Of a DNA stretch of 64,000 bases, positions 6,858 through 64,000 are shown piece after piece; the stretch's first letter is position 1, and the number at the start of each line of letters is the position of its first letter. The translations under genes and the position numbers were made by a program. Location of the stretch: NCBI GenBank assembly GCA_963965975.1, contig OZ014412.1, forward strand, positions 8,060,708 to 8,124,707. The letters are read 5' to 3'. The DNA is from Xestospongia bergquistia. Taxonomy: Eukaryota > Porifera > Demospongiae > Haplosclerida > Petrosiidae. Below the pieces are notes generated by a model. It was given only the letters and a program-made list of their open reading frames with translations, was not told the origin of the DNA and searched no databases.

Positions 6858-9638
6858 ATGTTGTTTGTTCTAGTACTTATGATTCTATCTATTCTTCCAT
6901 TAACTAGTAAGTGCTGTCTAGTTATATATTAATAATCTAATGATGTTACCATTAGACTCAACAGTGACTTCATTGACATGTCCATTCTCTCAACAATGTT
7001 ACAATGAAAGTCATCTCATTCTCTCATGTGAAACAGAGGCAGTTGTTTTAGCTTGGAGAATTGATCAACAATCACTTGAAATTATTTACAATTATCATGA
7101 TCCTGTAGGTAGCACTGATACATTTGGGAATTTTCGAACAAGTCTTGATCAACGACAACCAGCAAAGTCCACTATGAGAATTACATCAACTACTTCAATG
7201 TATGGTCTAAAAATTGATTGTATTGATGGTATTGATGGAGATAAGAGATCCTGTACTCTTATTAGTAAGTAAAAGAATATATGGAAATTCTATTTACTGT
7301 ATATATTATAGAGTATCCTGGTCAACCTGTTAATCTCACTATTACACATATCTCTAACAATACAGTAACATTACAATGGACTCCACCAGTACAAACTGGT
7401 GGTCCTAATATTACTGTACATTATATAGTTCATATTAGTTCAGAGAATGACACTATTTTCAGTTGTTCTGATAATCAATGTAATGTAACATTAAACAAAA
7501 CCACAATTACTGGTTTACAGACTGGTATACAATATAACATTACTGTGTCTGCTGTTAACTGTATTGGTATAGGACCACCAAGTTCATCAATACAAGTAAT
7601 ACCAGGTATGTGATACAGACAGCGCTATATATCCTATAAATTTTGATAAACAAGATACAGGTTCAAATTCACAAGATTGTATTACATTTGAATAGAAAGT
7701 CATACCCTTTAGGGAAATCTCCTATACTAATTTCACAACATTCTTTTAAAGCAGTTGACTTTACTACTGTTAAGTTGTATTGGTCAATTATTAATGATTC
7801 CATTGAGAAAGTTAAGAACTTTAATATCAAGTTGTTTGAAGCTTTGAAGACATCTAATGTAAGAGAGTTTACTACTGAGAATACCAGTCTTGTGGTGACC
7901 GATTTAAAAGAGAAACTAGAATACTCTTTTTCCATTCAAGCAAGAGATTTTAATGGGAGTTTGAGTGTCTTTTCTACTTCTATTAACTTCATATTAGATG
8001 GTACAGAATTCACAGACTATTCATTTATCAATTTGTCTGTCCAATAATCTATCTATCCATTAATTCATGTATCTATCCATCTTCAATATATGTAATGATT
8101 ACTTTCTTGTCTTTTTTATTATAGTTCCAGTATCAGTAAACTTGACAATGTTTTTAATTAAAATATCTGGCTCAAATTTTAAAGTTGATCAAAGTTTTTT
8201 TCAAATAACTTTTCAGGTAAGTAGACAAGATTATTGTGAACCTAATTATGACCACCATCATCCTATGTACACATTGATGTTCTTATGTAAACTATCACAT
8301 TGAGATCACCAGTTCCTATGATAACTAAACAAACTTTCTCTGACCTAAGCATGAATGGTTGTTAAAACATAAACACTTTTATCTATGATTATAGTGGAAG
8401 TTCATGAACTTGAAGACATTATGTCTCCAATAGATATGTATAACAATTAAGCTAAAAATTAATGTACTCAATTGTATAGGCTAAATAATAGGAGACTGTA
8501 TAATTATAACATAATAGTCATTACTATTGATTTATATGAATTATTAGAATGAAAATAACATGTATAGGTACACACTGAACATTAAAATAGGACCACCTGC
8601 ATTATATGTAAAGGCAATAAAGTATGCCCTGGCAAAATATAACATGTCTATCATTTTTTGTCTGGCATGTTGTACTTGCCTAAGCAGTCCTATGATTGTT
8701 TTGGACCACTTGTTAACTATATACATGTCCATTCCACATAATTTTATTCTATTGTTATACATGATTTTCAAGAGTGAGAAATGAAATCAACTAACTGTAA
8801 ACACACGTAACAACCAATAAATATTATTGCTTTTGCCATCTAAAGTCAACATAATATCTTATAACAACTCTCCTGTTTTTCGACTTAACAAAAAATCAAT
8901 TATTTATAATAACAAATGTACCATTAACATAATGTTAAGACAATTTTATAATTATATTCTTGTTTAGTACTTTAAGAATAGCAGACTTCCAATCACTGGA
9001 TATTTGATACATCATAATGGGACAGAGTCTGGCAACATCACTTCCATTTTTTATAATACTACAAATACTACAGTGGATTACAAAACTGTCATTCCTAGTC
9101 AATGTATTAATGGAGCAGATTTGTTGGTATCTGTGGCAGCTGTCAATGACTTGGGCACTGGTGATTGGGCAACAACCAGTGCTAAACTAACATTCGATAA
9201 CCATATTATTACATGTAAGAATGATATAACATTGTTACTTTTAATAACACTTGGTGCTATTTATAGCTTCAGTTATGAACATTATGAACAGACCAACTTC
9301 TACAGTTATATCTACTCCATCATCAAAAGATTATAATAGTTTGTTAAACAGTATCTATTTAAACTATTATAATTATTACTTTATCTTATACAGGTTCATT
9401 CCTGTCTTTAGTAACATTGCCCCTCTCATTACTTTTATTAATTATTTTATTCTTTATCATCTGTTTGATCTGTATTATAATATATAAGAAAAATAAGTTC
9501 ACAGACCAAGGTATCTCACTCTCTCTTGTATAATTTGATTATAGATATAGTCCTTTAGCCAATGATACCGGGAAACGAGGAGATAATTGTATTACTGTTG
9601 AAGGAAACATTGCCTTTTCTTATATTAACACTCACTGA
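6858..9638 (+). CDS. Receptor A: signal peptide-Ig-FN3x3-TM, shortened tail
   Basis: Exons: 6858-6906, 6956-7264, 7312-7605, 7713-8000, 8125-8216, 8968-9214, 9267-9338, 9394-9510, 9559-9638; 515 residues, open throughout. Exon 1 encodes a signal peptide (MLFVLVLMILSILPL). Exon 2 encodes an Ig-like domain (LSCETEAVVLAWRI, later cysteine in LKIDC). Exons 3 and 4 each encode an FN3 domain and exons 5-6 together a third. Then come a short Ser/Thr stalk and a transmembrane segment (LSLLLLIILFFIICLICIII). The predicted place is the cell surface, with binding through Ig/FN3; the ligand is unknown. Against paralog C the stalk exon is about half as long and the last exon lacks about 96 bases, removing NPSY and VIYDEI; TAYSYI has become IAFSYI. 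The exon 6 donor is placed at GTAAGA, shared with C. A transposon sits in its promoter. Confidence 0.8.
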
Positions 9639-9802
9639 CATTTATATGAATGATGTGTGATCTAATATTATTAATCTTTATAGTTTTATTATCACTAGTT
9701 GTTTGTGAAAATGTGCTTTATTTAAATGTTTAACAAATGTAGCAATTATTATTGTTACTATAGCAACAATTTTAACAATTGTTATTAATAATCTAATGAT
9801 TG

Positions 9803-10079
9803 TTACTAATAGATTCAACAATGATTTTTGTCATTGACATGTCCACTCTTTCAACAACTCAAGATTGATAGTCATCTCAATCTCTCATGTGAAACAGAGA
9901 AAGTTGTTTTAGCTTGGAGAATTAACCAACAATCATTTGACATTATCTACAATTATCATAATCTTGTAGGTAACAATGATACATTTGGGACCTTTCAAAC
10001 AAGTCTTGATGAACAGCAAATCCATAACGAAATTCACACCAATTACTTCAATGCAGGGTCTACAAATAATATTGTATAA
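9803..10079 (+). pseudogene. Lone Ig exon of an A/C-type receptor
   Basis: This closely matches exon 2 of A and C (LTCP, LSCETEKVVLAWRIN, IIYNYHN, FQTSLDE) after an ATAATCTAATGAT intron end like theirs. There is no signal-peptide exon before it, the 3' end diverges from the normal donor, and no FN3 exon follows. It is a truncated duplicate. Confidence 0.7.
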
Positions 10080-11184: not shown

Positions 11185-11510
11185 TTACAGTAGTAGAGTT
11201 TGGTAACTTGCTTGTACTCCACCATTAATGCACTTGATATGTAAATCTGCGTCTCATTCACTGTGAATGTCAAATTTGAAGAATACAGCACATTATTATC
11301 ATAAATAGCTTTAAACCCTTTGGCCTTCTTTACTTGTATTGTGATTTAATAAAGTCAAATTGTTGTATACTTGTCCCATTTATATCCCAGATGGTGTGGT
11401 GGTCTTAAATGACAGTGTATCAGGTTTCCTACACATGTTCTATTACAATCCTCATTACATGTACACCTAAAATCCTCTACAACAGCACCTATACAGAATA
11501 CAGTGAGACA
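11185..11510 (-). pseudogene. Possible Ig-domain remnant, minus strand
   Basis: After a plausible acceptor near 11490 the minus strand reads a cysteine-rich start (CTCNEDCNRTCVGN, then HCHLRPPHHLGYKWD), with the Cys-Trp spacing of an Ig domain, but a stop follows soon. A second open piece (VLYSSNLTFTVNETQIY) ends at a GTAAGA donor near 11175. Together with 10430-10790 this would make an Ig-FN3 order on the minus strand, as in the H genes. It is degraded, and the assignment is tentative. Confidence 0.35.
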
Positions 11511-11529
11511 CATTAAAAGATCATGGTTT

Positions 11530-12678: not shown

Positions 12679-15600
12679 ATGTTGTTTGTTCTAGTACTTA
12701 TGATTCTATCTATTCTTCCATTAACTAGTAAGTGCTGTCTAGTTATATATTAATAATCTAATGATGTTACCATTAGACTCAACAGTGACTTCATTGACAT
12801 GTCCATTCTCTCAACAATGTTACAATGAAAGTCATCTCATTCTCTCATGTGAAACAGAGGCAGTTGTTTTAGCTTGGAGAATTGATCAACAATCACTTGA
12901 AATTATTTACAATTATGATGATCCTGTAGGTAGCACTGATACATTTGGAAATTTTCAAACAAGTCTTGATCAACGACAACCAGCAAAGTCCACAATGAAA
13001 ATTACACCAACTACTTCAATGAATGGTCTAAAAATTGATTGTATTGATGGTATTGATGGAGATAAGAGATCCTGTATTCTTGAAGTTATTAGTAAGTAAA
13101 AGGATATATGGAAATTCTATTTACTGTATATATTATAGAGTGTCCTGGTCAACCTGTGAATCTCACTATTACACATATCTCTAACAATACAGTAACATTA
13201 CAATGGACTCCACCAGTACAAACTGGTGGTCCTAATATTACTGTACATTATATAGTTCATATTAGTTCAGAGAATGACACTAATTTCAGTTGTTCTGATA
13301 ATCAATGTATTATAACATTAAACGAAACCACGATTACTGGTTTGCAGACTGGTATACAATATAACATTGCTGTGTGTGCTGTTAACTATATTGGTACAGG
13401 ACCACCAAGTTCATCAATACAAGTAATACCAGGTATGTGATACAGACAGCACTATATATAATATATATTTTGATAAACAATACACCAGTTAAGTTAAATA
13501 CAGAAGATTGGATTACATCATCAAGTATAAGCCAAAATATTCTTTAGGGAAATCCTCTATTCTAATTTCAAAACCTTCTTTCAAAGCAGTTGACTTTACA
13601 ACTGTTAAGTTGTATTGGTCAATTATCAATGATTCCATTGAGAAAGTTAAGAACTTTAATGTCAAGTTGTTTGAAACTTTGAACACATCTAATATAAGAG
13701 AGTTTACTACTGAGAATACCAGTCTTGTGGTGACCGATTTAAAAGAGAAATTAGAATACTCCTTTTCCATTCAAGCAAGAGATTTTAATAAAAGAGTGGG
13801 TGTCTTTTCTACTCCTGTCAACTTCATATTAGATGGTACATAGATCACAGATATTTCCATTCATCTTTCTGTCCGTCCATTAATCTATCTGCTTATCTAT
13901 CCATTGATAATGTATCTATTCATCTTTCATTTATGTAACAATTACTTTCTTATCTTCATTATTATAGTTCCAATATCAGTAAACTTGACAAATTGTTCAA
14001 TTGAAATGTCTGACTCAAATTTCAAAGCTGATCAAAATAAAAATTCTTTGCAAATAACTTTTAAGGTATGTAGACAAGATTATTGTGAACTAACTATGAA
14101 CACCATTCATCCTATATATACATTGATGTTCTTATGTAAACTAGCCTGTTTTATTTGTTTACTTAGTACATCAGTTGATAAATTGACATCCATCAATTGA
14201 GAGGATATGTTTCTATGGTAACTAAACATACTTTCTCTGACCTAACCATCAATAGTTGTAAAAACACAAACACTTTAATCTATGATGTCATCATTATAGT
14301 GGAAGTTCATGAACTTTCAGTCATTATGTCTTCAATATAGATGCATAGAACAAATAAGCTAAAATTACTGTACTCATTGTACAGACTAAGTAATAGGTTA
14401 CTGTATATGTTAGTAGTAACATAATGACATGGTCATTACCATTGATTTAGTGTAGTGATTAGTGTAGACATAAGATGTTATAGTTTTTGTTTAGTTATAG
14501 TAAAAGGTAAAATTTATTTTTATTTTTAGTATTAGTTATAGTATTAATGTGAAATTTAATTTAGTTATAGTGACGTTTAAACTGAAGCCACATTGAGCAC
14601 CATCACTTTTATTAATCAAGCAAACACTTTTGTTTTCTTCAGGAAGATACTTGGAAGTATTGCCATACTCAACTTTCTCTTGGTCTACCAGTAACAGCTG
14701 CTATACTAACTGTAGCCATGCTTTCTAGTTAATCTTAACTATAATAACTAGAAAATCACTCATGCATGGAAGGTTAAATGCACAAACAACTCAGGCATGG
14801 ACTACCTAACATGATAATTATGTTTTTTACACATTCTATGTGGTTAATAACTAATATAATTGAGGCTATTTAATTTAGTATTAGTTATAGTTCAAAGGAA
14901 AGTTTTAATTTTAGTTTAGTTATAGTTATAGTAACATTTGAAAAAAAATATTAGTTATAGTTTTAGTTATAGTTAACTAAAACTTACTCTCTACTAAAAA
15001 TATTTTAGTATTAGTTATAGTTAACTAAAACAACACTATAATTTACATATAATATTAGAATGACATATCAATGTAGAAAGTAACATGCATAGATACACAA
15101 AGAACATTTGGCCATTAAATGAGACCACCAGCATGATATTTGAACTATGCTCTGGGAACATACTTATATCTTTTCTGGCATGCATGTTGCACTGTCCTGA
15201 TGGTCTTAAGTTCTTTTGAACCACTTGTTAGCAATATATACAGCTACATCCATTTCACTCTTCTTGTTTAGTACTTTAAGTGTAGCAGACCTCCAATCAC
15301 TGGATATTTGATACATCATAATGGGACAGAGTCTGGCAACATAACTTCCATTTATCATAATACTACAAATACTATAGTGGATTACAAAACTGTCATTCCT
15401 AGTCAATGTATTAATAAAGGAGGTTTGTTGGTATCTGTGGCAGCTGTCAATGATTTGGGTACTGGTGGGTGGGCAACAACCAGTGCTAAACTAACATTCA
15501 GTATCCATATTATTACATGTAAGAATGATATAACAATGTTACTATTAATAACATTTTGTGCTATTTATAGCTTCAGTTACAATCACTTCAGCTACTCCTG

Positions 15601-16146
15601 CTATGATTATGGAAACGCAAACATTTTCTAGTGCAAAGTCCGATTCTCATAAACCAAGTGCTACTATAGACATTAACAGACCAACAGTTATACCTACTTC
15701 CTCATCACAGGATTATAATAATAGTTTGTTAAACAATGCCAATTTAAACTATTATAATTATTACTTTATCTTGTACAGGTTCATTCCAAATGCCACCCCA
15801 TACATTCCCGTCTGTAATTCTATTGATAACAATGCCCCTCTCATTACTTTTATTAATTATTTTATGCTTTATCATCTGTTTGATTTGTATTGTAATATGT
15901 AAGAAACATGAGCTCATAGATCAAGGTATCTCTACCTTTCTCTTATAATTTGATGACTATCATCCTTTAGTCACTGATATCGATACTAATCCCAGCTATG
16001 TTAGTATAACTGTACCAAGAGTGATTCAAGTTAGACCTCCTTCAGTAATTTATGATGAAATCATGCCAACACAAGAGGAACAAGGAGGAGGTACTAGTAT
16101 TACTGTTGAAGAGAATACTGCCTATTCTTATATCAACACTAACTGA
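12679..16146 (+). CDS. Receptor C: signal peptide-Ig-FN3x3-TM-NPxY/ITIM/ITSM tail
   Basis: Exons: 12679-12727, 12777-13091, 13139-13432, 13548-13835, 13968-14065, 15272-15518, 15571-15723, 15779-15925, 15971-16146; 588 residues. The order is signal peptide, Ig-like domain, three FN3 domains (the third split over exons 5-6 in phase 0), a Thr/Ser-rich stalk of about 50 residues, a transmembrane segment (about residues 500-525) and a 70-residue tail. The tail holds NPSY (NPxY type), VIYDEI (fits the ITIM consensus I/V/L/S-x-Y-x-x-I/V/L) and TAYSYI (fits the ITSM consensus T-x-Y-x-x-V/I). ITIM/ITSM sites in known receptors recruit SH2 phosphatases or adaptors when phosphorylated, so an inhibitory or switch-like signalling role is plausible but inferred. 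Intron 5 (1.2 kb) contains an insertion absent from A. The ligand is unknown. Confidence 0.85.
14450..15040. mobile_element. AT-rich insertion in intron 5 of gene C, MITE-like
   Basis: The intron of gene A runs through this point without interruption (TTGATTTATATGAATTATTAG near 8530), so about 590 bases were gained in C. Both ends carry many copies of TTAGTTATAGT-like words, and the ends read TAGTGTAGTG and, inverted, TATAGTGTTG, weakly like hAT-type ends. No protein is encoded. A non-autonomous DNA transposon is likely; the exact ends are unsure. Confidence 0.45.
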
Positions 16147-18486: not shown

Positions 18487-21400
18487 ATGAACAGTTTACT
18501 GGTGTTTATTGCATTTGGTAAGTTCAAATAGCCTATTAGAGTTGTTTAACACTTGACCACCATTATCTGGACAGGTTTCCTGGCTACTACCATTGCCAAC
18601 TATGGTACTGACTTTTACATTGGACTTATGATCAATTTTAATACAACAACTGAAAATATTTGGTTATTTATAACGACTCCTTCTTCATCTCCTGTCAATT
18701 ATACCATTGCAGACTACACTCATATTATATCTACAGGAATTGTCACCAGCTTAAGCCCAGTAAACGAGAGTATTGATATATCTTATGTTACGTTAAACAG
18801 TAGTTACTCTCAACGTAAAAAAGGGATACGTGTGTACACTGAAAATGGAGGACTTATATCAGTGCTAGTTATTAACTATGTTTATTATTCATCTGGTGAC
18901 TATCTTGCTTATTCACATCAAGAATTGTTGATACATCAATATCAATACTTTGCTGTATCAACAGAAACAATTGGATTGCTTAGTGGGGTACTTCTTGTAG
19001 GCAATAAAGACAACACTACAGTCACCATTATACCTACTGAAAGTGTTATAATTCCTCAAGATATCCAGAACTCAACAAGTGCTGATATAACAGTTGCAGC
19101 TGGAACACCATACACTGTTACTCTTCACAAAATGCAGACATTTCTTTTTGGAACACCAACTGCTGATATCAGTGGAACTAGTATAGTATCTGATAAACCA
19201 CTCACTGTAATTAGTGGTCATGAATGTGCTTACATACCAGTCAATGTTACAGCTTGTGAACAACTCATTGAACAGATACCACCGACAGTAACGTGGGGTA
19301 AAAGATTCCTCCTCACTCCATATGCTGGTAGATCAAGACGGTACTACAAGATTATAGCAGCCGACAATAAGACTACACTAACATATAGATGTAGCACTGA
19401 CTCTGCAGTAACACTTTATCTGTTGAATCCTGGAGATTATANNNNNNNNNNNNNNNNNNNNNNNNNNNNNNNNNNNNNNNNNNNNNNNNNNNNNNNNNNN
19501 NNNNNNNNNNNNNNNNNNNNNNNNNNNNNNNNNNNNNNNNNNNNNNNNNNNNNNNNNNNNNNNNNNNNNNNNNNNNNNNNNNNNNNNNNNNNNNNNNNNN
19601 NNNNNNNNNNNNNNNNNNNNNNNNNNNNNNNNNNNNNNNNNCTACATTTTATTCAAACACCACTTCGTATTGCTCCTTAATCTCAGACAAACCAGTGCTA
19701 GTTACTCAACTAGGACCTGGCAATAATTTTGATTTCCTTGGTATCGGTGATCCCGTCATTTCAATGATACTTCCAATTGATCAATATTTTGAGAATATAA
19801 CTTTCATATCTCCGACTCTACCAATAATTGAAACACATCACCTAAATCTTGCTTCTATTACCAACGACACAGTACTGATGGATGGACAACCACTATCTCT
19901 AACATGGAACAACATCTATGATAGTGAGAACAACATTATGGGATATGGTACACAAATACCAATAACTGATCTCACATCTCATACTATTACTACACAGTCT
20001 AATACAAAATTTAGTGCTTTAGTATATGGATTTGGCTGGTCTACTGGTTATTCATATAGTGCTAATGTCAAACAAATGCAACTTGTTCAAAGTAGGTAGA
20101 ATGAAAATTTTATGTATTGTGCTACCATTTTATAGATCCGCTACAAATTCAACCTTGGTATGGACATATCCTTGGAGGAGTGCCAATATTGATCTCTGGA
20201 CCTTATTTTAAAGAAAATGATCAAATTAATTTGTCATTTGATAATGTTAATATGGTTAATTGTACTTATATCAATTCCAAAGATTCACTGTGTATCACTC
20301 CTCGTCTCACTAAAACTGGAAGAGTAACAGTGAATCTATACCAAAATGGCAGTCAATATGAAAAAACAACAAAGTTTTATTCCAGTAAGAAAAATGCTAT
20401 TTAAACTGTCAGAAAATTATAATGTTTTTTCTAGAACGTGTTGAAGATGATGTTCATGTATTTATTAGCTCTAATGAATTACTGATCCATATAGAAGATA
20501 ATATTACATTAACATGGTCAACAGCATCTCTGACTAAACCATTACAAGATGTCATTGCTCCCTCAAATCTACTTGTTGACATTAAGTTACATATTTTCCA
20601 TATATCTAATGATGTCCCTACATTAGAACAAGTGACCACACTAGACAGTGATGTAGCTAATAGTGGGTCAGCCACTGTCACAATACCTATTATATCACAC
20701 TTCAGTAATCAATCTGTTTATGGTGCTATTATTTCCATTGAAGCTAAAGGTAGTGATCCTCAGAATCATACATTATTTGATAAAGCAGAAGGAACAGTCA
20801 CTCAATGGACAGATATAATATGGATAGTATCAACCAATAAACAATCTAATGATACTAAACTATGGTCTGCATGTAAAGCATGGTCTATCAGTGAACCATC
20901 TAGTATTGGTCAACTACTATTAGATAAAGTGCGTTCTGCTTTCCCTTGTCCACCCACTATTGGTCAAGCTAGAACTGTCAACAGTGGACTTATTGAAGAT
21001 GGAGACACAAAATTGATAGAATTCTTTCATCCTAAAGCTTCCAAATGTTTTTATCAAAGGACAATTACAAAGTAAGTATGATGTAACTCATTCGTTGAAA
21101 TTATTATTGATTATTATATAATAGAACTGAAGGAGCAGGTAATGAATGTTGCTATGGGAACAACGGTAATTTGATAGTGGGGACAAATAATGGAGGATCA
21201 GTGGATAAAGTATCTGTAGTTGGTAGTAGTAGATTAAACTACTTCAGTAACTTAGTCAGGCATCAATTTGAAGATATCCTACCATTTATCTTCTGTTGTA
21301 AAGGAACACAAACTAGTTGTGACATTTACTATCAAAGACGTCCTTCAGATAATGGAACGGCTTACAATCCTCCAATACCTGGTAATAAATTATTAATAAT

Positions 21401-30645: not shown

Positions 30646-30984
30646 CCTAGACTATTACTGATGATAGCAGCAAAGTTACACAGCTTGATAATTCTGTATA
30701 AGATAAAAGCAATGTCAGAATAAGTTTAAATTAAATTTATATTGTCTCACATGTAGAGTCAGGATATGAATATGTTTCAATTGGACCACACAGTTAATGT
30801 TTAGACTATCATGGGATGTTGGTCAGTTTATAGGACTTGGAGCATATGAAATTATTTGGTACTTATTAAATAACCCTCATCTGAGACAAAAAGAAAATGA
30901 ATGGCCCTCAGCTCCTACATGCATGGTTGTACCTCATGTATGTACCTGTACAATGCAAAAATTACTATTGTTATTTTACTAATA
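30646..30984. other. Upstream region of gene E
   Basis: No gene is supported. Short open frames at 30797-31085 have no recognisable content until the pseudogene begins near 30985. Confidence 0.45.
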
Positions 30985-48829: not shown

Positions 48830-49284
48830 TTCAAACAATGGGTCATATTGCTCCTTATCATGTGCCATTTGTTTCAAAATTACTTATTCAAACTGCATAC
48901 CATTGTTCATATTGTTCCTTAGTCTCCAACGAACCAGTGTTAGTAACACAATTGCAATTAAAACTTGATCAAAGTTTTGGATGGTACCACTGAAGATGAT
49001 CAAATTATATCAATGATACCTCTAATTGATCAATATCCTAACAGTATCATTTTCACATACCTTGCTATATATCAGGAATTATTATACACTATATAAACCT
49101 TGCAGCACAACTGAAAGCAGAGTACTAATAGTGGACAACCAGTATCTTTAACATGGAACACATTCTATGATAGTATTAACAACATTGTTGGATATGGTAC
49201 ATAATCTAAATAACTGATGTTACCTTTCATATTATTAGTACACAGTCTAATAACAAAATTTAACACTCTGATGTATTGATTTAG
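48830..49284 (+). pseudogene. Ruined F-type IgGFc segment, cassette 4
   Basis: It follows the same pattern as the segments at 37420-37850 and 42810-43240 (GHIAPYHVPF, CSYCSLVSNEPVLVTQL, SLTWNTFYDS), with more decay, including loss of the MDGQ start. Similarity ends abruptly at about 49285. Confidence 0.65.
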
Positions 49285-49457
49285 TTGGTCAAACAACCTG
49301 CAATATTACCATCATCATTTGGAATTATAGGATTAATATTAAGACCATCAGTTAGAACTATATCATGAGTAGTTGGAACTGTAACATTAGTAGCAGGACC
49401 ATTAGTTGTTAGACAAACATTAGTACTATCCAGTACTACATGAATAAACAATAGACT
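49285..49457 (-). pseudogene. Inverted stalk segment of an F-type pseudogene
   Basis: Reverse-complemented, this matches the stalk region at about 37855-38005 (and 43243-43390): STNV..., TNGPATNVTVPTTHDIVLTDGLNINPIIPNDD. It continues from the forward-oriented segment before it and joins directly to gene-D-like DNA after it, so both ends are rearrangement breakpoints. Confidence 0.7.
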
Positions 49458-50226
49458 TGTAATTTGTTAATAAATAATAATGATAGCTGTATTATATATA
49501 TTGAAATTTAAATCTCATGCACAGGTCAATTCCCTTACTTCATTCTATTGATGATAATACCATTCATAATACTCTTGATAATTAGTATTGTCTGTCTTGT
49601 TTGTGGCATCATAATCAAAAAGTGATGGAAAAAATTTTCTAACAAAGGTACTTATAAATAGAATTCTACAGTATACTCTACTCTCTATAATATGATCAGT
49701 CCATGAGTGGAAATAATATGTGCCATCTGACTAAAAATGACAGTATTATATGTAGATTAGAAAGCCATCTTTATAGAGTCAATAGACATGTAGATGACTT
49801 ATATAGTTTAACTACTGTGTTCTAACAGAGATGTTCACTTTTTTAGCAGGAGATGCTTATTATTCAAGGTGTAATGAAGCTGTATCACAAACACTACCAA
49901 CAAACATTAATTCAGTAATTTATGAAGAAATTGGCCGTGAGAGTACAATAATTTATGATAGAGTCAGGAAGATTACACTAGAATATCATCAAATCAATGA
50001 AACTACAAGAGACAACAAGATGGACAAGACAAGAAGGAACCTCTTGTGTCAATAACATTATTAATTATGATGAATACTCTACTAGTACTATTGGTATTGA
50101 ATCTTTTGCATATTCTACAAGTATAAATGTCACAGAAAATCCTGCATATTCTACCAGTGTCAATGTTATGTTTTTAAGAACCCTGGATGTTATACTCTGG
50201 GAGAGTCTTCTTATTAATTTTCCTTA
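49458..50226 (+). pseudogene. Broken copy of the gene D membrane and tail exons
   Basis: 49525-49649 matches the D membrane exon (GQFPYFILLMIIPFIIL) with a TGA in the basic stop-transfer stretch. The following intron and last exon (from about 49846) match D, keeping VIYEEI and IIYDRV, with LEYHQI for LEYDQI. A frame change follows RDNK, and only two NPxY-like units remain (ENPAYSTS). The array is thus much shorter than in D, perhaps nearer the ancestral state. Confidence 0.75.
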
Positions 50227-51263: not shown

Positions 51264-54200
51264 ATGAAGACCGTACTTTTAGCATCAATATTATATTGTG
51301 AGTTGTAAATACAATTAATATAATCAATTATTTTTATTACCTTAAAGTTTTAGTCGTTCGTGAAAATGCTGAGCTTGTTAAAGGGGATTTCTATATTGGA
51401 GCTATGCGGAATTATCGAGGATTTACTCAAAATCTTCTGCTGTATATTACAACTTCAAGCTCCTCAGATGTGAGCTACACTATTCAAAATTATACTGGTG
51501 TTATAACAACAGGAACTGTTACTAACATAAATCCAGCCAAAGTGAGTCTCCCAGTTTCCCTTGTTACCTTAGACAGCGACTACTCCAATCGTAAAAAGGG
51601 GATTTATATTTACTCAGCTGAACCTATTTCTGTATTGGTGGTCAATTATCGGTTATATACTGTTGGAGAATATATGGCTTACCCATTTCAAGAATATCCA
51701 ATAAATCAATACCAATATTATGCTGTGTCAACCGGAACACTAGCTATATTTGATAATGCATTGAGTGAGGTACTCCTTGTTGGAAATAAAGACAACACTA
51801 CAGTCACTATTATTCCAACTCAGACTATTACAGTCCCTCAAGATATTCAGAACCCAACGAGTCCCAATATAACAATAACTACAGGATCTCCATTCACTTT
51901 TACTCTTCACAGGATGCAAACATTTCTATTTGGAGCACCACTAGCTGATATCACTGGAACTAGTATAATATCAGATAAACCACTTACTGTAATTAGTGGT
52001 CATGAATGTGGTAATGTCCCAGATAACGTTGCAGCTTGTGAACATGTCACTGAGCAGATACCACCCACAGTAACATGGGGTAAACAATTCCTCCTTACTC
52101 CTTACGCTAATAGATCAAGGCAATACTACAGGATTATAGCATCTGAAAGTGAGAGTACACTAACATATAGATGCAGCTCTGACTCTGCAGTAACACTCTA
52201 TCTATCAAATCCTGGAGACTTTACTACATTCTTTTCAAACACATCGTATTGCTCCTTAGTTTCTGATAAACCAGTGCTAGTTATTCAATTAGGACCTGGC
52301 CATGTATTAGATGATATTGGTGATCCTGTCATGTCAACAGTACCTTCAATAAATCAATATTCTGAGAGTGTTACTTTCACATCTCCAACTATGTCAATGC
52401 ATGTCCTGAACATTGCTTCCACTACTAAAGACACAGTACTATTGGATGGACAACCAGTATCTCTAACATGGAACAACATCTATGATAGTGACAACAACAT
52501 TATGGGATATGGTGGACAAATACAAATAACTAACTTCACTTCTCATACTATTACTACAAAGTCTAATTCAAAATTTAGCATATTAGTGTATAGTTTTGAT
52601 TTTTCTACTGGTTATTCATATAGTGCTGGTGTAAGACAAACACAACTTGTTCAAAGTGAGCATAGTAGTGAAGTGTAATAATATATGTATCACTGTAAAA
52701 ATTGTTCCATTATTTAATTTTAACAACCAATTTGAAACTTTACATCAGAGGATTTCTATGGAATCTGTCCTTCATGTGAATTACTCATTACATAATTTGT
52801 TAGTATGTTATACTTAGTCTATTACAAAGCAACAAATATAGAGTGAGTAGTAATTCATATCAATTTTGGATTCCATAATATTCTACTTATGTAAACTACA
52901 AATAAATTGTTGAAATAACATATCAACTCTTCTATTACTCATTTATATATATACTTGTATAGATCCACTACAAATTCGACCTTCATATGGACATATTTTT
53001 GGAGGAGTACCTGTGTTAGTCTCTGGGCCTTATTTTAAACAAAACAGTAAAATTAAAGTGTCATTTGATGACACTATTGTTAACTGTACTTATGTCAATA
53101 TTGATGATGCACTCTGTATATCTCCTTTTTTTACCAAAACTGGAAGAGTAACAATTATGCTGCATTACGATACACATATATATGATAAAACAACAGTCTT
53201 TTATTCAAGTGAGTTAATGAGCTCATAATTATAAGTTACTGAGAAATTGTACTTATTTTTAGATCGTGTTGAACATGACAGTCATACACGTGTTCGTATT
53301 AACTCTGATGAGCCTCTAATTCATGTGGGAGATAAAATCCCATTAGCTTGGTTACCAGTATCTCTGACTAAACCATTACAAGATGTTATTGCCCCCTTAG
53401 ATCTACTTGTTGACATTAAGTTACATATCTTCCATATATCTAATGATGTCCCTACATTAGAACAAGTGACCACACTAGACAGTGATGTAACTAATACTGG
53501 GTCAGCTACTGTCACAGTACCTATTATATCTCACTCCAGTAATCAATCTGTTTATAGTGCTGTTATTTCCATTGAAGCTAAAGGGAGTGATCCTCAGAAT
53601 TCTACATTATTTGATAAAGCAGAAGGGACAGTCACTCAATGGACAGATATAATATGGATAGTATCAACCAATAAACAATCTAGTGGTACTAAACTATGGT
53701 CTGCATGTAAAGCATGGTCTATCAGTGAACCAACTAGTATTGGTCAACAACTATTAGATAATGTCCGTTCTGATTTCCCATGTCCACCCACTATTGGTCA
53801 AGCTAGAACTATCAACAGTGGACTTATTGAAGATACAAATATAAAATTGCTTGGATTTTTTCATCCTAAAGCCTTCAAATGTTTTTATCAAAGGACCATT
53901 ACAAGGTAATATAATTCATATACTGAGACAACAATGATTATATGTTCAAAATATGAATATTATTATTATGACTATCTCCTTATCAATCACATCACATCAC
54001 ACATCACATGCAGGTCTAATGAAGGATCAGGTAATGAATGTTGCTATGGCAATGATGGAAATCTGATAGTGGGACCAACCAGTGGAGGATCAGTGGATAA
54101 AGTATCTACTGTTGGAAATAGTGGAGTAAATTATTTGCATAACCTAATCAAACATCAGTTTGAGGATGTTCTGCCATTAATTTTCTGTTGTAAAGGAACA

Positions 54201-55802
54201 CAAACTAGTTGTGATATTTATTATAAAAGACGCCCTTCAGATGATGGATCAGCATTTTCTCCTCCTGTTCCAGGTAGGTTATATTTTTCAAAGATTACTT
54301 TCTCATTAATACTATAGCTTGTGTAATTTATAATAATTTGTCATTCATTAGCTATCATAATTGGTGATCCACATATTGTGACTCTTGATCTTTACAAGTA
54401 CACATTTAATGGAAAGGGAGAGTTTGTTCTCATTGAGACAAATGATCATTCATTTACACTTCAAGGGAGAATGGTTGAAGTTAAAACTTCATTGGGAAGT
54501 CTTGCAGATGCTACTGTCTTCTCAGCTTGTGTAGCCAAAGAAAAGACCTCAAGTACAGTTCAGTTTGAAATAGAAACAGTTGACAATATCACTTCTGTGA
54601 TCACTCTTGTCAATGGAGAAAGAGCTAACTTTGATGAGTTGAAAAGTCAAGAATTTGAAAATGTGACCATCATTGACTCTGGTAACAACACACTCAGTGC
54701 CACATTCTCAAGTGGTGCAGTCCTACGAGTACAAGAACAAAATGGTTTTATATCTGTCCTTATTGTTAGCCTCCCAGAAAGTTATCAAAGCAAAACTCAA
54801 GGATTAATGGGTCCATATAATGGTGATAAAACAGATGACCTTACTCCAAGGGGAAATGGAACAAAACTACTATTGAATTCTACTATAAAGGAAATACATG
54901 AAAACTTTGGAGTCACATGTAAGTCAAGCTTAATGCTTTTTTTAATTTGCAATTTTTTTCGTTTTTTGTTTTCAGGGATCATTGATAATCCAAGTGATAG
55001 TTTGTTTACATATCATTTTGGACAAAGCTGGTCTACATACTATTATCCATCATTCATTCCTGTGTATAAACCTTCCTTTTCTGATACTGCCTTGAAAGAG
55101 AAGGCTGATCAGATTTGTGGTGATGATGTGTTTTGTAAATTTGATATAGCGACTACTGAAAGAATTGAGATTGGAGAGGCTACATATCGAGGAGGACAGG
55201 AACTTGAAAAACTAGTTAATTTATCCAAACCAAGTAAGTAATTAACACTCATTCACTCTATTGACTTCTATCTCATTCATAGTAAGTTGTAATCCATCCT
55301 GTGTTCATGGTGCTTGTGTGGATACTAATGTGTGTGCTTGTGGAGAAGATTATGAAGGAGACACTTGTGATACTACTGGTAATGATATATATATCTATGT
55401 AATATATGTAATCACAATTTGTTAACAGTATATTTACCCTGTGATCAAAACCCTTGTAATGGTGGTACATGTCAATATCATGCTGGTAGTTATATTTGTC
55501 ATTGTCTACCTGGTTTTACTGGAGTATTCTGTGAGGACAAATTACCATCAAGTAGTAAGTACATACATGAATATTATGTATTTGATTAATTTTAAACTCT
55601 TATAGTTCAAAGTAATAATCTTGGTGTTATTGTTGGAGTTGGAGTAGGTCTGGGAGTGCCACTATTTGTAATAGTGATAGCTGTTATAGCAATAGTTCTG
55701 GTACTTTTTTTACAACGGAAGAAGAAACTTTCAAAAACAAATGAAAAAGTCTCTGACGATAATACTTATGAAGAAATGGATATGACAAATATTAATAAAT
55801 AG
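51264..55802 (+). CDS. Receptor F: IgGFc-like-IPT-Ig-AMOP-VWD-EGFx2-TM-YEEM tail
   Basis: Exons: 51264-51297, 51354-52655, 52963-53208, 53263-53905, 54014-54273, 54352-54918, 54976-55233, 55283-55378, 55429-55554, 55606-55802; 1242 residues, open throughout. Signal peptide [13 protein letters not shown]. IgGFc-like domain to residue 445 ([30 protein letters not shown]), IPT to 527, Ig-like spacer and AMOP ([21 protein letters not shown]) to 828, VWD ([20 protein letters not shown]) to 1017, MUC4-like segment to 1103, two EGFs, a transmembrane segment ([19 protein letters not shown]) and a short tail with TYEEMDM. YEEM fits the YxxM pattern bound by PI3-kinase p85 SH2 domains. The VWD exon uses an acceptor about 35 bases downstream of the one in D. 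It is the only whole member of the cassette's large gene and precedes G4. Confidence 0.88.
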
Positions 55803-56407: not shown

Positions 56408-58572
56408 ATGAACTTTTTCCTACTTTGTGTGCTGCTACTGTTTAGACTAATAGGTAAGATCTTGGTATCACAGACTATGCTGTATTCTTCTACTTTTATA
56501 GAATGTCAAGTCATTAGTCTTGACTGTGGCATAGCAGACTCTTTGTGTCCATCAGTTCATCATCATGTTGTGTTGAGATGTAAGACAGTGCATCGTTATC
56601 TGGTGTGGAATATTAATAATCAATCCATTGAATTTACATCATCTAATCATATTAATGAGACAAGTACTAAAGGTCTGTTTCTGGCAACACTTGTTGCTAA
56701 TATTGAAAATGCCCCTATGATTTCTACTCTAAGTTTTAACTCCAGTCTTGTGTCTTTAAAAACTGTCATAGAATGTATTGATAATGCTGCCAATAATGGT
56801 ATTCGGCAATGTCAAACAATGCTTGCTGGTAAGTAAAACAACAATAAAGCACAAAACACTTTTGTATTTGATTAGTATGCTATTTCTGATAGTATTTTTA
56901 TTTTTCTCAAGTCACTTTCTCTTTCAAGTTGTTTGACAAAGTGATAGTTTAAAATATTGTAGCCACAGAGCCTAAATTGATCATTTATTATTCTGTTTCC
57001 TCATAGAACCTTCAGGAATCCCCACAAATTTGACACTGCAACAGCAACAACAAGATTCTTCAACGATTACATTGTTGTGGTCAACTCCTATCACAACCAA
57101 TAGTTTGTTGATCAACTATTATATAATTAAAGTAATCAATGATTCAATGAACAATACCTGGACGACAAACTTGACAGAGATAACTATCAATGGGCTGAAA
57201 AAAGGTGTGGTCTATCAAGTCAGTGTGAAAGCTGTTACATGTTATGGCAGTCTATTAGGGAATGAGTCTTTAATATTAGTACAATTGACAAGTAAGAGAT
57301 TTAGAATAAGGGTAAGAGTGATTGTTCTTTTGGTATGAATTTATTAATTTTTAAAAAATTGTTTCAGTCGTAGTGTTATTGTATACAAGTGGTCACTATA
57401 ATACACAACAAACTTCTTAGAATTACACTAACTATTGTTTTTACCATCATTATGGCACACATTGAAAAACAAACATTAATTGTGTGCCAACTATAAGGGT
57501 ATTTTACAAATGTTCATTGAAAATATGTTTCTTTTAATACAAAATAACTCTATAACAAAGGACACAATTAATGTTTTCTTAGTCACTTTATCAGTTGTTT
57601 AAACAAATATGTGATTATGGTCAACTTAATAGTATTCATGAACATCATCTACCACTTTGTCATATTACAGATGACCCATCACCTTCTGCTTCATTCACAT
57701 CCACTCAGTCAACTGTGGTGCTTTCTACTTCATCATCAACTTTGTATTCACAAACAATTACCTCATTAGCCAATTCTAGTCCAACCAGTATTACTACTGG
57801 ACTACATACTAGTACTGTCATTAGTACGGAAACTAATACAGGTATCATTGTTATTAACTGTATAGATATGAGTAACAGAGGTGTATGTTTAGCTACAGTA
57901 AATTTGATATGTCAAATGACCTATCTACTCAAGATCAGTTTCTATATAGAGCATGTTTGCATATGTTTTCTAAAGTGTGTTAGTTGTTTTATATAACAGT
58001 ATATAGGCACATGTGTATATTGTAAATGTATCTTTAACTAGTGTGTAATGCTTGGTAACTTTTACTAGCACTTAAAGTTATTAATGATATTCTTATATCA
58101 TTAGAGGTCCAATCAACTCTAACACCAATATCTCCAACTGTCTCAACACAAGAGACAACAAACCCTACAATAAACACATCAAATGATTCTGGTTAGTTTA
58201 TATTGATGGTATTGAACAAACAAATAATTCTTTCTTGTAGACTCAATATTATGGACAATGCTTATAATAAGTGGAACAATAGGAGCATTCATTACACTTT
58301 TCCTATTATCTATTGTTAGTTTGTCTGTATCCATTATATGTTTGTTACAAAAAGCCAGAAGAACTTCACCCACTAAAGGTGTCATCGAAACGTCTTCTCT
58401 ACCACCTTTGACCTTTAGTCAAGAAGTGACTCATTCAACAGAGCCAATGACTGATATTAAGTTATGTAAAAATCCATGTTTTAAAGATTCTTATCAAGTG
58501 GAGGACTATTATCCTGTAATTTTAAACGTACCTAAGCTAGCAATAGGTAATAGTAGAACAGAATTGGTTTAA
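56408..58572 (+). CDS. G4: Ig-FN3-stalk-TM receptor
   Basis: Exons: 56408-56453, 56502-56828, 57007-57291, 57671-57841, 58105-58191, 58241-58572; 415 residues. The Ig exon is of the short type, as in G2, with its own changes in the variable stretch (VWNINNQSIEFTSSNHINETSTKGLF). The tail is one residue shorter than in G2 (VIETSSLPPLTF, KDSYQVEDYY). FN3, stalk and membrane exons are close to the other copies. It sits 600 bases after intact F and converges with H4. Confidence 0.85.
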
Positions 58573-58745
58573 TAAACTCAATGTTTTTAATTAATTAACA
58601 GTTTATTACTTGTGTGTTTTTAAATATAAAAACACAAAAGGTATATTTTTAAATATAAAATAAAGACTCTGTTTGTCAACAGACCTAAAATGAACTCAAA
58701 AATCAAAATTTTTAACAAGAGACATACTTTAAGGATTTGTCTTAT

Positions 58746-59774
58746 TTATTTGAGGATTACAATAAGCAATGCCAGGACTATAACCACCAACACAGCAGAT
58801 TTATCTAAGGAACAATATAAATTAATTATATAGTATATATATTTTGTATCTTGATTACGTACTTATAGTACTGCAGTTTATTACAACAGAAGGTGGGGTT
58901 GATGGAGCTGGTGTTTTGTCATCTTTGTCATCTTCTATAAGAATCTTAATACTTTTTGATGGCTTACTTTCACCATTACAGTTTACTGCTATTACAATGA
59001 CATTATATTCACCAGGTTTAAGACCCATGAGTATGACAGAAGTTGATCCGATTCTCTTTAAAGTCTGAATAATCCTACCAGAATTTGATAGTAAGACTTT
59101 GTAATAGTCTACATGAGAGTTATCTGATGTCCATGTAAGTAGTGGTTCTTCGCAAATGGTTACTGCTACACTGCGAGGAGCAATTGGTATTTCTTTGATA
59201 ATATAGAAGTTAAGAAAAGTTTAACGTATTGTCTTACTTTTAAGTTTAACTTGACAATTTTTATTAAATGAGTCTGATTGTGGCTGAAGACAAGTTACAT
59301 TGATAGCATTACTCTTGTGCACTGGGTTCAACTTAAACTGTAGTTGACTGGTCACCATTTGATCAATAGCTTTGTAAACAAGTTTAGCTTGAATATTCTT
59401 CATAAAACAGGGACTTGATGAATTGTGGAGATCATTAACTTGATGGATATATCCAAAATTGATTTGGCATTGTGAATTAACAAGCCACCCAATACCATTT
59501 CCAGGGACAGTGCATTGAGCACTGATCTCCTGTCCTATGCAAATTTCTTGAAGTGACTGACAGTGGAAGAGTGGTTGTTGTGTCCACCCACTTCCAAGTA
59601 CTATAGAGGAAATAATGAATATGGTATCATTTTTATGATTAGACACTTCACCAATATTCATATGATATATTGTTATACTATAAGGAGGCACTGATGATGT
59701 GTGTTTACCAAATCACACTGTACACATGATTGACACTTACAATTGAGTAGGAAAATGATACAGCAATATTTCAT
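58746..59774 (-). CDS. H4: Ig-FN3-anchored protein
   Basis: Exons, 5' to 3': 59741-59774, 59238-59600, 58863-59192, 58746-58804; 261 residues. It is closest to H2 in the Ig domain (LFHCQSLQEIC, INFGYIHQVNDLHN) but has VHKSNAIN for VDKSNAIN, and the anchor ends AILK-like as in H1 (LLIVILK). Confidence 0.8.
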
Positions 59775-60099: not shown

Positions 60100-61182
60100 T
60101 TAAATTCAAACAATATTGCTCCTTATCATGTGCCATTTGTTTCAAAATTATTTAGTCAAACTACATACCATTGTTCGTATTGTTCCTTAGTCTCCAACAA
60201 ACCAGTGTTAGTAACACAATTAGAATCTGTCAAAAGTTTTGGGTGGTACTACCAGTGATTCAGTTACATCACTGATATCTCTAATTGGTCACTATCCTAA
60301 CAGTATCATTTGCACATACTTTGCTATATAACAGGAATTACTATACACTATATAAACCTTGCAGTTACAACTGAAAGCAGAGTACTAATGGATGGACAAC
60401 TAGTATCTTTAACATGGAACACATTCTATGATAGTGAGAACAACATTATTGGATATGGTACACAAATCCAAATAACTGACCTCACCTCTCTTATTATTAG
60501 TACAGAGTTTAATACAATATTTAACACTCTGATGTAGTGATTTAGCTGGTCTATTGTTATTCATGTAGTACTGGATAGTACTAATGTTTCTGTAACAGCT
60601 AATGGTCCTACAACTAATGTTACAGTTCCAACTGATAATCTTAATATTAATCCTACAATTCCAAATGATTTTGCGAGTTGTTTTGACTTGCAATTTGTTA
60701 ATAAGTAATTCTTTAATTTCTATCATATATTTACAGTTAGTTGTAATCATTCCTGTGTTAATGGTACTTGTGTGGATACTAATGTGTGTGCTTGTGGAGA
60801 AGGTTATAAAGGAGACACTTGTAATACTACTGATAATGATATATATCTATATATATGTAATCACAATATAATTTGTTAACATTATATTTACCCTGTGGTC
60901 AAAATCCTTGTAATGGTGGTATATGTCAATATCATGTTGGTAATTATATCTGTCATTGTCTACCTGGTTTTACTGGAGTATTCTGTGAGGACAAATTACC
61001 ATCAAGTAGTAAGTACATACGTGAATATTATGTATTTGATTAATTTAAACTCTTATAGGTCAAAGTACTAATCTTGGTGTTATTGTTGGAGTAGGTCTGG
61101 GAGTACCACTATTTGTAATAGTGATAGCAGTTATAGTAATAATCCTGTTGCTTTTTTTACAACGGAAGAAGAAACTTTAAAA
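60100..61182 (+). pseudogene. Ruined F-type receptor, cassette 5
   Basis: The layout is that of 37390-38485, but less decayed: the first EGF keeps GEGYKGDTCNTT and the second keeps its last cysteine (FCEDKL). The stalk is shorter by about 30 bases. The membrane exon again ends at RKKKL. The signal peptide, most of IgGFc, IPT, AMOP and VWD are absent. Confidence 0.75.
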
Positions 61183-61572: not shown

Positions 61573-61589
61573 CTCTTTCACTGAAAGAG
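61573..61589. promoter_or_regulatory. Palindromic GAS-like site upstream of G5
   Basis: Exact copy of the 17-base palindrome, about 165 bases before the start codon. Confidence 0.4.
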
Positions 61590-61752
61590 GTGGGTTCAGT
61601 TCAGGACAAGACCACAACAACTCTGAATGAAGTGTAGGAAGTAGGGGGAGTTCTAAAAAGAACTGTTTGTGTACAGAAAAGAAGACAACAATGAGTTAAA
61701 TATCATCATTTAGAGAGAGAGAGAGAAACTAGTATAAGACTGTGTTTTAACT

Positions 61753-63749
61753 ATGAACTTTCTCCTACTTTGTGTGCTGCTACTGTTTAGACTAATAGGT
61801 AAGATCTTGGTATTACACTAAGACTAGTAATAATGGTCTGTTTTTGGGAAGAGTTGTTGCAAATATTGAAAATGCCCCTATGATTTCTACCCTAAGTTTT
61901 AACTCCAGTCTTGTGTCTTTAGGAACTGTCATAAAATGTATTGACAATGCTGCCAATAATGGTGTTCAGCAATGTCAAACAATGCTTGCTGGTAAGTAAA
62001 ACAACAATAAAGCACAAAACACTTTTGTGTTTGATTAGTATGCTATTTCTGATAGTATTTTTATTTTTTTCAAGTCACTTTGTCTTTCAAGTTGTTTGAC
62101 AAAGTGATAGTTTAAAATATTGTAGTCACAGAGCCTAAATTGATCATTTATTATTCTGTTTCCTCATAGAACCTTCAGGAATCCCCACAAATTTGACACT
62201 GCAACAGCAACAACAAGATTCTTCAACGATTACATTGTTGTGGTCAACTCCTATCACAACCAATAGTTTGTTGATCAACTATTATATAATCAAATTAATC
62301 AACAATTCAATGAACAACACCTGGACGACAAACTTGACAGAGATAACTATAAATGAGCTGAAAAAAGGTGTGATCTATCAAGTCAGTGTGAAAGCTGTTA
62401 CATGTTATGGCAGTCTATTAGGGAATGAGTCTTTAATATTAGTACAATTGACAAGTAAGACATTTACAATAAGTATAAGAGTGATTGTTCTTTTGGTATG
62501 AATTTATTAAATTTTTTTAAATTGTTTCAGTTGTAGTGTTATTTAATACAAGTGGTCACTATAATACACAACAAACTTCTTAGAATTACACTAACTATTG
62601 TTTTCACCATCATTATGACACACATTGAAAAACAAACATTAATTGTGTGCCAACTATAACAGTATTTTACAAATTTTCATTGAAAATATGTTTCTTTTAA
62701 TACAAAATAACTCTATAACAAAGGACACAATTAATGTTTTCTTAGTCACTTTCTTAGTATCAGTTGTTTAAACAAATATGTGATTATGATCAACTTAATA
62801 GTATTCACGAACATCATCTACCACTTTATCATATTACAGATGACCCATCACCATCTGCTTCATTCACATCCACTTCGTCAACTGTGGTGCTTTCTCCTTC
62901 ATCATCAACTTTGTATTCACAAACAATTACCTCATTAGCCAATTCTAGTCCAACCAGTATTACTACTGGACTACATACTAGTACTGTCATTAGTACTGAA
63001 ACTAATAAAGGTATCATTGTTATTAACTGTAGAGTTATGAGTAACAGAGGTGTATGTTTAGCTACAGTAAATTTGATATGTCAAATGACCTATCTACTCA
63101 AGATCAGTTTCTATATAGAGCATGTTTGCATATGTTTTCTAAAGTGTGTTAGTTGTTTTATATAACAGTATATAGGCACATGTGTATATTGTAAATGTAT
63201 CTTTAACTAGTGTGTAATGCTTGGTAACTTTTACTAGCACTTAAAAGTTATTAATGATATTCTTATATCATTAGAGGTCCAATCAACTCTAACACCAATA
63301 TCTCCAACTGTCTCAACACAAGAGACAACAAACCCTACAATAAACACATCAAATGACTCTGGTTAGTTTATATTGATGGTATCGAACAAACAAATGATCA
63401 TTTCTTTCTCATAGACTCAATATTATGGACAATGCTTATAATAAGTGGAACAATAGGAGCATTTATTACACTTTTCATATTATCTATTGTTAGTTTGTCA
63501 GTATCCATTATATGTTTGTTACAAAAAACCAGAAGAACTCCACCCACTAAAGGTATCATCGAAATGTCTTCTCCTCTACCACCTTTGACCTTTAGTCAAG
63601 AAGTGACTAATTCAACAGAGCCAATGACTGATATTAAATTATGTAAAAATCCATGTTTTAAAGATCCTTATCAAGTAGAGGACTATTATCCTGTAATTTT
63701 AAATGTACCTAAGCTAGCAATAGGTAATAGTAGAACAGAATTGGTTTAA
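61753..63749 (+). pseudogene. G5: G-type receptor with half of the Ig exon deleted
   Basis: Exons seen: 61753-61798, remnant of the Ig exon about 61813-61991, 62170-62454, 62840-63010, 63275-63361, 63415-63749. A deletion runs from the first intron (after CTTGGTAT) into the Ig exon and removes the acceptor, the first cysteines and the core Trp. The remaining Ig sequence is G1-like (KTSNNGLFLGRVV). The other exons are intact. Because exon 1 and the FN3 exon are both phase 1, direct joining would give a 307-residue Ig-less receptor (signal peptide-FN3-stalk-membrane-tail). So it is either a pseudogene or a working variant; the sequence alone cannot decide. Confidence 0.6.
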
Positions 63750-63929
63750 TAAACTCAATGTTTTTAATTAATTAACAGTTTATTACTTTGGTGATTAAAT
63801 TTTTAAAAAAGGTAAACTTTTAAGGTATGTTTTTAAATATAAAATAAAGACTCTGTTTGTCAACAGACCTAAAATGAACTCAAAAATCAAAATTTTTAAC
63901 AAGAGACATACTTTAAGGATTTGTCTTGT

Positions 63930-64000
63930 TTAGTTGAGGATTACAATGAACAATGCCAGGACTATAACCACCAACACAGCAGATTTATCTAAGGAACAAT
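63930..64000 (-). CDS. H5: last exon only (cut by the window end)
   Basis: Exon 63930-63988 encodes the NKSAVLVVIVLALFIVILN anchor and stop, as in H2. The rest of the gene lies beyond the window, so the array continues. Confidence 0.75.
   Translation of the reverse strand, partial: CSLDKSAVLVVIVLALFIVILN

Follow-up and report, generated by a model that had tools for sequence, protein, structure and literature searches.

KIR and LILR are clustered type I receptors with immunoglobulin (Ig) domains, which evolve by birth and death and include members with and without an immunoreceptor tyrosine-based inhibitory motif (ITIM). In PD-1, an ITIM is followed by an immunoreceptor tyrosine-based switch motif (ITSM) at a tyrosine spacing of 25, and the two are read by SHP2. 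As outlined in PMC2442602, NITR receptors are likewise clustered type I proteins with Ig domains, subject to birth-and-death evolution, some of them with and some without an ITIM. The Alr complex of Hydractinia, in the outline given by PMC11067881, comprises many linked membrane genes resembling the Ig superfamily (IgSF) together with pseudogenes, and the Ig fold was recognised by means of AlphaFold; the summary in a review (PMC11999971) adds that Alr proteins have V-set and I-set domains. The abundance of V-set domains in sponges is already published: in the overview of PMC12909245, no immune domain counted in Dysidea avara and the other sponges studied is more abundant than V-set and I-set. 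Here we describe a receptor complex of the sponge Xestospongia bergquistia. The window, i.e. the whole stretch of 64,000 nucleotides that was analysed, corresponds to C2:8060708-8124707 (the prefix before a colon names a contig) within a 146-Mb assembly of 21 contigs. It lies in a complex of at least four related receptor families (A, B, C and D) that are nearly private to the locus. The explanation we lean towards, with slightly better than even confidence, is a KIR/NITR-like innate inhibitory (checkpoint) receptor complex, in which C-type and some IgGFc receptors would signal through ITIM/ITSM tails to SHP phosphatases.

Gene models were based on GT-AG introns and open frames, either drawn up manually or transferred from a single copy, and signal peptides and transmembrane (TM) segments were assigned by eye. 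The window contains nine intact receptors that cross the membrane once and combine a distal domain (D1) with fibronectin type III (FN3) domains, namely A1-A4 on the plus strand, B1-B4 on the minus strand and C2 on the plus strand. This agrees with the at least nine intact membrane-type Ig/FN3 genes of the initial annotation, except that the Ig label is backed by structure prediction and not by Pfam. A1-A4 consist of a signal peptide, D1, FN3, two Ser/Thr stalk exons and a TM segment with tail; B1-B4 of a signal peptide, D1, FN3, a TM segment and a tail of 1-2 residues. C2 has D1, FN3 domains, a stalk, a TM segment and an ITIM tail; Pfam finds two FN3 stretches, and by our own reading two exons together encode a third FN3-like unit. 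FN3 scores over the Pfam cut-off after D1 in A2, B2 and C2, and none of the receptor models contains a second Ig domain. Three large receptors of another type (G1-G3) are interspersed. The genes are as follows.

6858..9638, plus strand: C1 (model), with D1 (6956-7264), FN3 repeats, stalk and TM; ectodomain and TM frame are open, and the damage is confined to the tail exon, which is out of frame and without ITIM.
12679..16146, plus strand: C2, intact, with V-set-like D1, FN3 domains, stalk and TM; the tail has the ITIM VIYDEI and the ITSM TAYSYI (model, Pfam fn3, motif scan).
18487..24042, plus strand: G1, IgGFc-AMOP-VWD-EGF-type receptor; tail exon 23285-24042 with 3 ITIM and 10 NPxY; exon 2 is interrupted by a 200-N gap at 19442-19641.
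25648..30645, minus strand: G2, intact IgGFc-VWD-EGF receptor with a short tail, inverted relative to G1 and G3 (model, Pfam).
33658..35861, plus strand: A1, intact D1-FN3-stalk-TM-tail (model).
36042..37070, minus strand: B1, intact D1-FN3-TM, nearly tail-less (model).
39057..41248, plus strand: A2, intact; source of the D1 protein used for the second structure model (model).
41429..42457, minus strand: B2, intact; predicted protein identical to B5 (model).
44431..47310, plus strand: A3, intact; stalk exon block doubled (45618-46289 and 46317-46987) (model).
47491..48519, minus strand: B3, intact; the most diverged among B1-B5 (model).
51264..55802, plus strand: G3, intact IgGFc-AMOP-VWD-EGF receptor with YEEM in the tail (model, Pfam, motif scan).
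56408..58572, plus strand: A4, intact (model).
58746..59774, minus strand: B4, intact (model).
61753..63749, plus strand: A5, D1 exon without its first half and acceptor (model).
63930..63988, minus strand: last exon of B5; the remaining exons lie just past the window edge.

D1 is predicted by structure modelling to be a V-set-type Ig domain, a beta sandwich with strand order A'BCC'C''DEFG. Among 11 aligned members, the B-strand cysteine C26, the C-strand tryptophan W35 and the F-strand cysteine C91 are invariant, and C8 and C103 are kept in at least 90%. The family is invisible to Pfam searches: none of the 11 D1s matches an Ig model in Pfam at an E value of 1. The matches listed in a PDB search with a wider D1 profile are all Ig-domain proteins, but at E values of 0.19-1.1. 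In searches of a set of 5.8 billion proteins that need shared 5-residue words, A2 found no homologue, and C2 had 77 matches, to FN3-bearing proteins, when the 7995 top word-sharing candidates were scored.

Genome searches, which used single-protein queries for D and a further family, E, place families A-D almost entirely at this locus. All 6 genomic copies of family A are found here, as are all 10 rows for family B (including B1-B4, B5, a fragment and a diverged copy at 8131673) and all 15 rows for family D, which lies on the minus strand amid the C genes at C2:7.996-8.072 Mb and includes many fragments. The search with the C D1 gave 14 rows: ten C-type D1s at C2:8.006-8.074 Mb, six of them nearly whole and four partial, an A D1, and three rows at other places in the genome. 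Unspliced open frames around one D gene encode D1, FN3-like exons, a TM segment and a short tail. The whole cluster spans C2:7,995,911-8,132,344 and thus extends past both ends of the window. Weaker relatives cluster on C2 (2.8, 5.5, 5.95-6.19 and 6.257 Mb) and on C9. On the latter contig, three D1-like exons with equal scores (C9:7375114, 7396180 and 7417246) are spaced by exactly 21,066 bases, reflecting either a large tandem repeat of very recent origin or a repeat produced by the assembly. At C2:6256801-6259200, two near-identical D1-FN3 stretches stand head to head with open frames about 0.3 kb apart, which is a palindromic duplication.

The cytoplasmic tail of the C family was found at nine places in the genome, seven at the locus and two at C2:8576130 and 8588841. 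Eight tails were aligned (the copy at C2:8588841, which is unread, C1 and a further copy, Cc, with no tail match were excluded). The ITIM (SVIYDEI or SLIYDEI) is present in all eight and the ITSM (TAYSYI or TAYCYI) in five, with 24-28 residues between the tyrosines. Six of the 7 columns in the ITIM block are invariant, compared with 19 of 55 in the remaining tail (p=0.014). Together, a signal peptide, a predicted Ig ectodomain, a single TM segment and a conserved ITIM are found in C2 and with the C-type tails, and not in A, B or C1. At C2:8576001-8579000, unspliced frames on one strand encode VWD, EGF repeats and then a TM segment and a tail that both resemble those of C (76% identity over 37 residues and 64% over 53, respectively), so that one TM+ITIM cassette appears with two ectodomain types. 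A TM+tail segment of family A was also considered as a shared cassette and rejected, its genome matches being the 6 A genes only. The G1 tail has three ITIMs within its first 85 residues (shuffle p=0.0024), and its ten NPxY motifs have been multiplied by a coding tandem repeat (window positions 23511-24023, periods of 144 bp and 36 bp); in the genome, this NPxY-repeat tail was found at G1 and in one fragment only. None of the four motifs scanned occurs in the tails of A2 and G2. ITIM-like tails are a property of the C genes and G1, and not of A and B.

Matches to SH2, SH2 and PTP are co-located at at least nine loci when 150 of 405 PTP candidates are scored. Fly and worm each have one SHP gene, and humans have two. 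Seven of the loci apparently consist of one open frame of 521-629 residues, one on C7 (C7:8318067-8319560), one at 916 kb on C3 (C3:916188-917681) and five in an array at 1.265-1.284 Mb on C3 (C3:1265457-1283528); of the other two, one has a stop inside the PTP match and one lies in several frames on C6 (C6:199640-201523). The single open frames suggest retrocopy origin followed by tandem duplication. One copy from the C3 array was read whole. Its best PDB match is PTPN11/SHP2 (550 bits), followed by SHP1 (467 bits) and receptor PTPs (about 350), and it has HCSSGIGR and, in the WPD loop, WPE. Shp2 has been reported in Amphimedon (PMC7260276). Dense clusters of PTP matches are also found at C9:1.99-2.15 Mb, C5:0.44-0.78 Mb, C10:0.97-1.25 Mb and C2:6.83-6.93 Mb; these have no adjoining SH2 matches and are probably expansions of receptor-type PTPs.

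Under the checkpoint explanation, each A-D receptor would present one membrane-distal V-set-type domain on one or more FN3-type domains above a single TM segment, and D1 would bind a ligand on another cell or on a microbe. The C-type tails, and IgGFc receptors with the same or a similar tail, would be phosphorylated on their ITIM/ITSM tyrosines and would recruit SH2-SH2-PTP (SHP-type) phosphatases, which in turn would dampen an activating or phagocytic response. The amplified SHP-type genes elsewhere in the genome could be the readers of the ITIM tails. Families B and D, with short or near-absent tails, and A, with its ITIM-less tail, might serve as non-inhibitory partners, adhesion forms or ligands, and the complex as a whole would evolve as tandem copies arise, decay and exchange exons. 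The anatomy of the genes, their near-confinement to the locus, the conserved ITIM, a similar TM+tail on a VWD-EGF receptor and the amplified SHP-type genes are observed, and the V-set fold is predicted. That the tails are phosphorylated and recruit SHP, that their effect is inhibitory, which ligand and cell type are involved, and what A, B and D do is what we infer. Since some V-set-like receptors carry ITIM "off-switch" tails, a simple immune-checkpoint system in a sponge is possible. A stronger version is doubtful and proposed tentatively: a true ITIM/SHP checkpoint, in which a single interchangeable TM+ITIM cassette would be shared by several V-set families and by IgGFc receptors and have its counterpart in amplified SHPs, most of them single-exon, the locus being the fastest-evolving self or microbe recognition complex.

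Several observations weigh against this interpretation. For the fold, a narrower D1 profile from the first alignment found no Ig chain in PDB, the first D1 structure model (C2 first, 7 rows) reached a predicted local distance difference test (pLDDT) score of 54, and the relationship of the B D1 to the A/C D1, taken alone, is weak (hhalign probability 5.5%, E 0.007). For the tails, the alignment omits the ITIM-less C1, the unread ninth place and Cc, which lacks a tail match; in shuffles of the C2 tail, an ITIM alone has p=0.26 and an ITIM or ITSM p=0.054; and the most recently amplified genes, A and B, have no ITIM (the A2 tail was scanned, and B ends after the TM segment). For the phosphatases, eight of the nine loci are recognised from co-located matches, and the glutamate of the fully read copy, where WPD is the usual loop sequence, may lower its activity. 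SHP2 also serves growth-factor signalling.

The window was initially thought to contain three large IgGFc-AMOP-VWD receptors, and all three were recovered. Over the Pfam cut-off, G3 has IgGFc_binding, AMOP, VWD and C8-3_MUC4, and G2 has all of these except AMOP; the class of G1 was assigned through its similarity to G3. In the genome search, AMOP places over the cut-off lie within exons of both G1 and G2. The two best matches of G3 are IgGFc_binding-AMOP-VWD proteins of Amphimedon queenslandica, which are 47 and 49% identical over 93-98% of G3 and have the same four domains; this points to a sponge, probably a demosponge, in accord with the sponge-like animal suggested from the letters alone. 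Receptors of this class are not specific to the locus: IgGFc_binding occurs at at least 132 places in the genome (132 of 213 candidates scored), many in large clusters. Such clusters are seen at C1:14.39-14.82 and 21.9-22.3 Mb, C13:1.06-1.10 and 2.31-2.43 Mb, C7:1.03-1.32 Mb and C2:8.17-8.76 Mb.

Much of the window is made up of a tandem unit of about 5.4 kb, which comprises an A gene on the plus strand, a B gene on the minus strand, tail to tail with A, and a piece of a G gene. Five units start in the window, the fifth crossing its edge, and G3 lies between the third and fourth. Aligned pieces of at least 600 nt are 89.5-97.6% identical between units. The exon duplication, exon loss and inversion noted at the outset are seen in the A3 stalk block (duplicates 97.0% identical over 671 aligned nt), in A5, which lacks half of its D1 exon, and in G2 on the minus strand. 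Some introns, and not all, are near-identical: for A introns 1-5, K is 0.021, 0.033, 0.045, 0.009 and 0.067 (A D1 exon: dS 0.074, dN 0.043), while for C introns it is 0.16-0.26, which exceeds the C D1 dN of 0.10.

Pairwise dN/dS (Nei-Gojobori) is 0.58 for the A D1, 0.30 for the B D1 and 1.19 for the C D1. In a codon model, omega is 0.42, 0.58 and 0.20 for A D1, FN3 and tail, 0.35 and 0.55 for B D1 and FN3, and 0.67, 0.34, 0.62 and 0.91 for C D1, FN1, FN2 and FN3b, so that no tested exon class of A, B or C exceeds 1. Fixing omega at 1 worsens the fit of A D1 by 2.9 log-likelihood (lnL) units, that of B D1 by 3.3, that of the A tail by 9.3 and that of C D1 by just 0.9. The pairwise value for the C D1 was rejected as proof of diversifying selection, since the codon-model estimate does not differ from 1 (2 x lnL difference 1.9). 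Relative to a shared tree, and as raw lnL differences, separate exon trees gain 6, 11 and 16 units for the D1, stalk and tail of A and 9, 4 and 4 units for the D1, FN1 and FN3b of C; A FN3, C FN2 and the two B exons gain nothing. When one pair of units is followed along its length, identity goes from 94.8 to 100 to about 97%. Together with the exon trees, this uneven identity points to exon exchange or gene conversion. The locus changes through copy turnover and exchange, and it is in this sense that the initial description as fast-changing stands, and not in the sense of diversifying selection.

Between the genes, and at the left edge of the window, the following pieces were recognised.

775..948, plus strand: upstream C-like remnant with a C-type ITIM tail (tail match).
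9828..10019, plus strand: C-type D1 fragment.
11247..11486 (C2:8071954-8072193), minus strand: decayed D-family D1 with internal stops (D search).
30978..32601, plus strand: fragments of AMOP and IgGFc.
37477..37794, plus strand: IgGFc fragment of unit 1.
42858..43175, plus strand: IgGFc fragment of unit 2.
48901..50194, plus strand: fragments of IgGFc and of a G1-type tail.
60169..60552, plus strand: IgGFc fragment of unit 4.

Transposon remnants lie at 2086-4044 and 5407-6363, both on the minus strand, where a hAT dimerisation region (2086-2334) and a DDE_3 endonuclease (5407-5643) score over the Pfam cut-off. For the three longer frames next to these, Pfam gives no match at an E value of 0.01.

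Alternatively, D1 and the IgGFc receptors might bind bacteria from seawater or the microbiome, with G1-type ITIM and NPxY tails driving and limiting uptake. This is plausible, if held with clearly less than even confidence. The ten NPxY motifs of G1 suit endocytosis through PTB adaptors, as used by CED-1/LRP-type receptors. IgGFc_binding is strongly amplified, and expression of pattern recognition receptors is individual-specific in Halichondria panicea, as summarised in PMC8242945; because of these two points, recognition of microbes is at least as likely as allorecognition. However, the IgGFc genes are not particular to the locus, and the D1s searched (A2, C2) have no database relatives that hint at a microbial ligand.

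The genes might also be ordinary cell-adhesion receptors in an unstable tandem array, the copy number of which drifts, with tyrosine motifs that are generic SH2/PTB sites. Purifying selection on the A tails (omega 0.20; the fit is worse by 9.3 lnL units at omega=1) is in keeping with this, as are the Ig-like adhesion molecules described for sponges in the overview of PMC11999971 and a C2 ITIM that is alone no rarer than chance. Conservation of the ITIM across tails and ectodomain types and the SHP amplification would not be expected from drift alone, and we regard adhesion as rather unlikely.

Less likely still is an allorecognition complex, in which highly polymorphic alleles of D1 would recognise, from one side of a graft boundary to the other, either themselves or a linked partner (e.g., A with B of one unit) and so decide between fusion and rejection. 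The Hydractinia complex has a similar locus logic (PMC11067881, in outline), and every tandem unit joins an A and a B gene in tail-to-tail orientation. Variable D1 columns of A are enriched in the CDR2-like C'-C'' loop (6/9 compared with 15/101 elsewhere, p=0.0014, for a loop picked post hoc), but family C shows no such enrichment (3/9 compared with 45/97), and omega for D1 is below 1 in A, B and C. Allorecognition and microbe recognition are each compatible with ITIM-SHP signalling. That the tandem units are partly alleles laid in tandem by the assembly is very improbable: their high identity, the identical D1 exons of B2 and B5 and the gap inside G1 might suggest it, but identity varies along one unit pair, A3 and A5 have unit-private features, and the more diverged C and D genes do not hinge on this question.

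Sponges fuse, reject and host dense microbiomes, and for partner recognition at the receptor level the locus supplies concrete candidate genes. Those open to testing are V-set-like receptors missed by Pfam, a conserved ITIM/ITSM tail with two ectodomain types, and an amplified SHP-type set. Among the titles and abstracts listed, we found no description of a sponge V-set/ITIM cluster, a hidden V-set family, a common ITIM cassette or SHP amplification. Should ITIM-to-SHP signalling operate at this locus, a sponge would possess the inhibitory-receptor logic that is usually studied in vertebrates; if the stronger checkpoint version is true, signalling of the PD-1/KIR/NITR kind would be placed there by common descent or by convergence.

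In comparison with known systems, the V-set and I-set genes of Dysidea avara and other sponges were counted with Pfam, whereas D1 escapes it, and the passages on those genes (PMC12909245) mention neither ITIM tails nor SHP amplification. The Hydractinia Alr complex resembles the locus in its many linked IgSF-like membrane genes and pseudogenes and in a fold seen through structure prediction, but the sponge receptors have one V-set-like domain followed by FN3, with no further Ig domain in the models. The C-type tails resemble that of PD-1 in the order ITIM then ITSM and in their tyrosine spacing of 24-28 residues; the ITSM is missing from three of the eight tails in the alignment, and this is a likeness only. 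Activating members with a charged TM residue, as in KIR and NITR, were not seen among the B and D TM segments read by eye: B has a lysine at the outer edge only, and the D frame read has no charged residue in its hydrophobic run. The locus shares with NITR, KIR and LILR its clustering, birth-and-death evolution and coexistence of ITIM-bearing and ITIM-less members. It differs from them in that a V-set-like, Pfam-invisible D1 sits on FN3, and in that a similar TM+ITIM tail is also found behind a VWD-EGF receptor.

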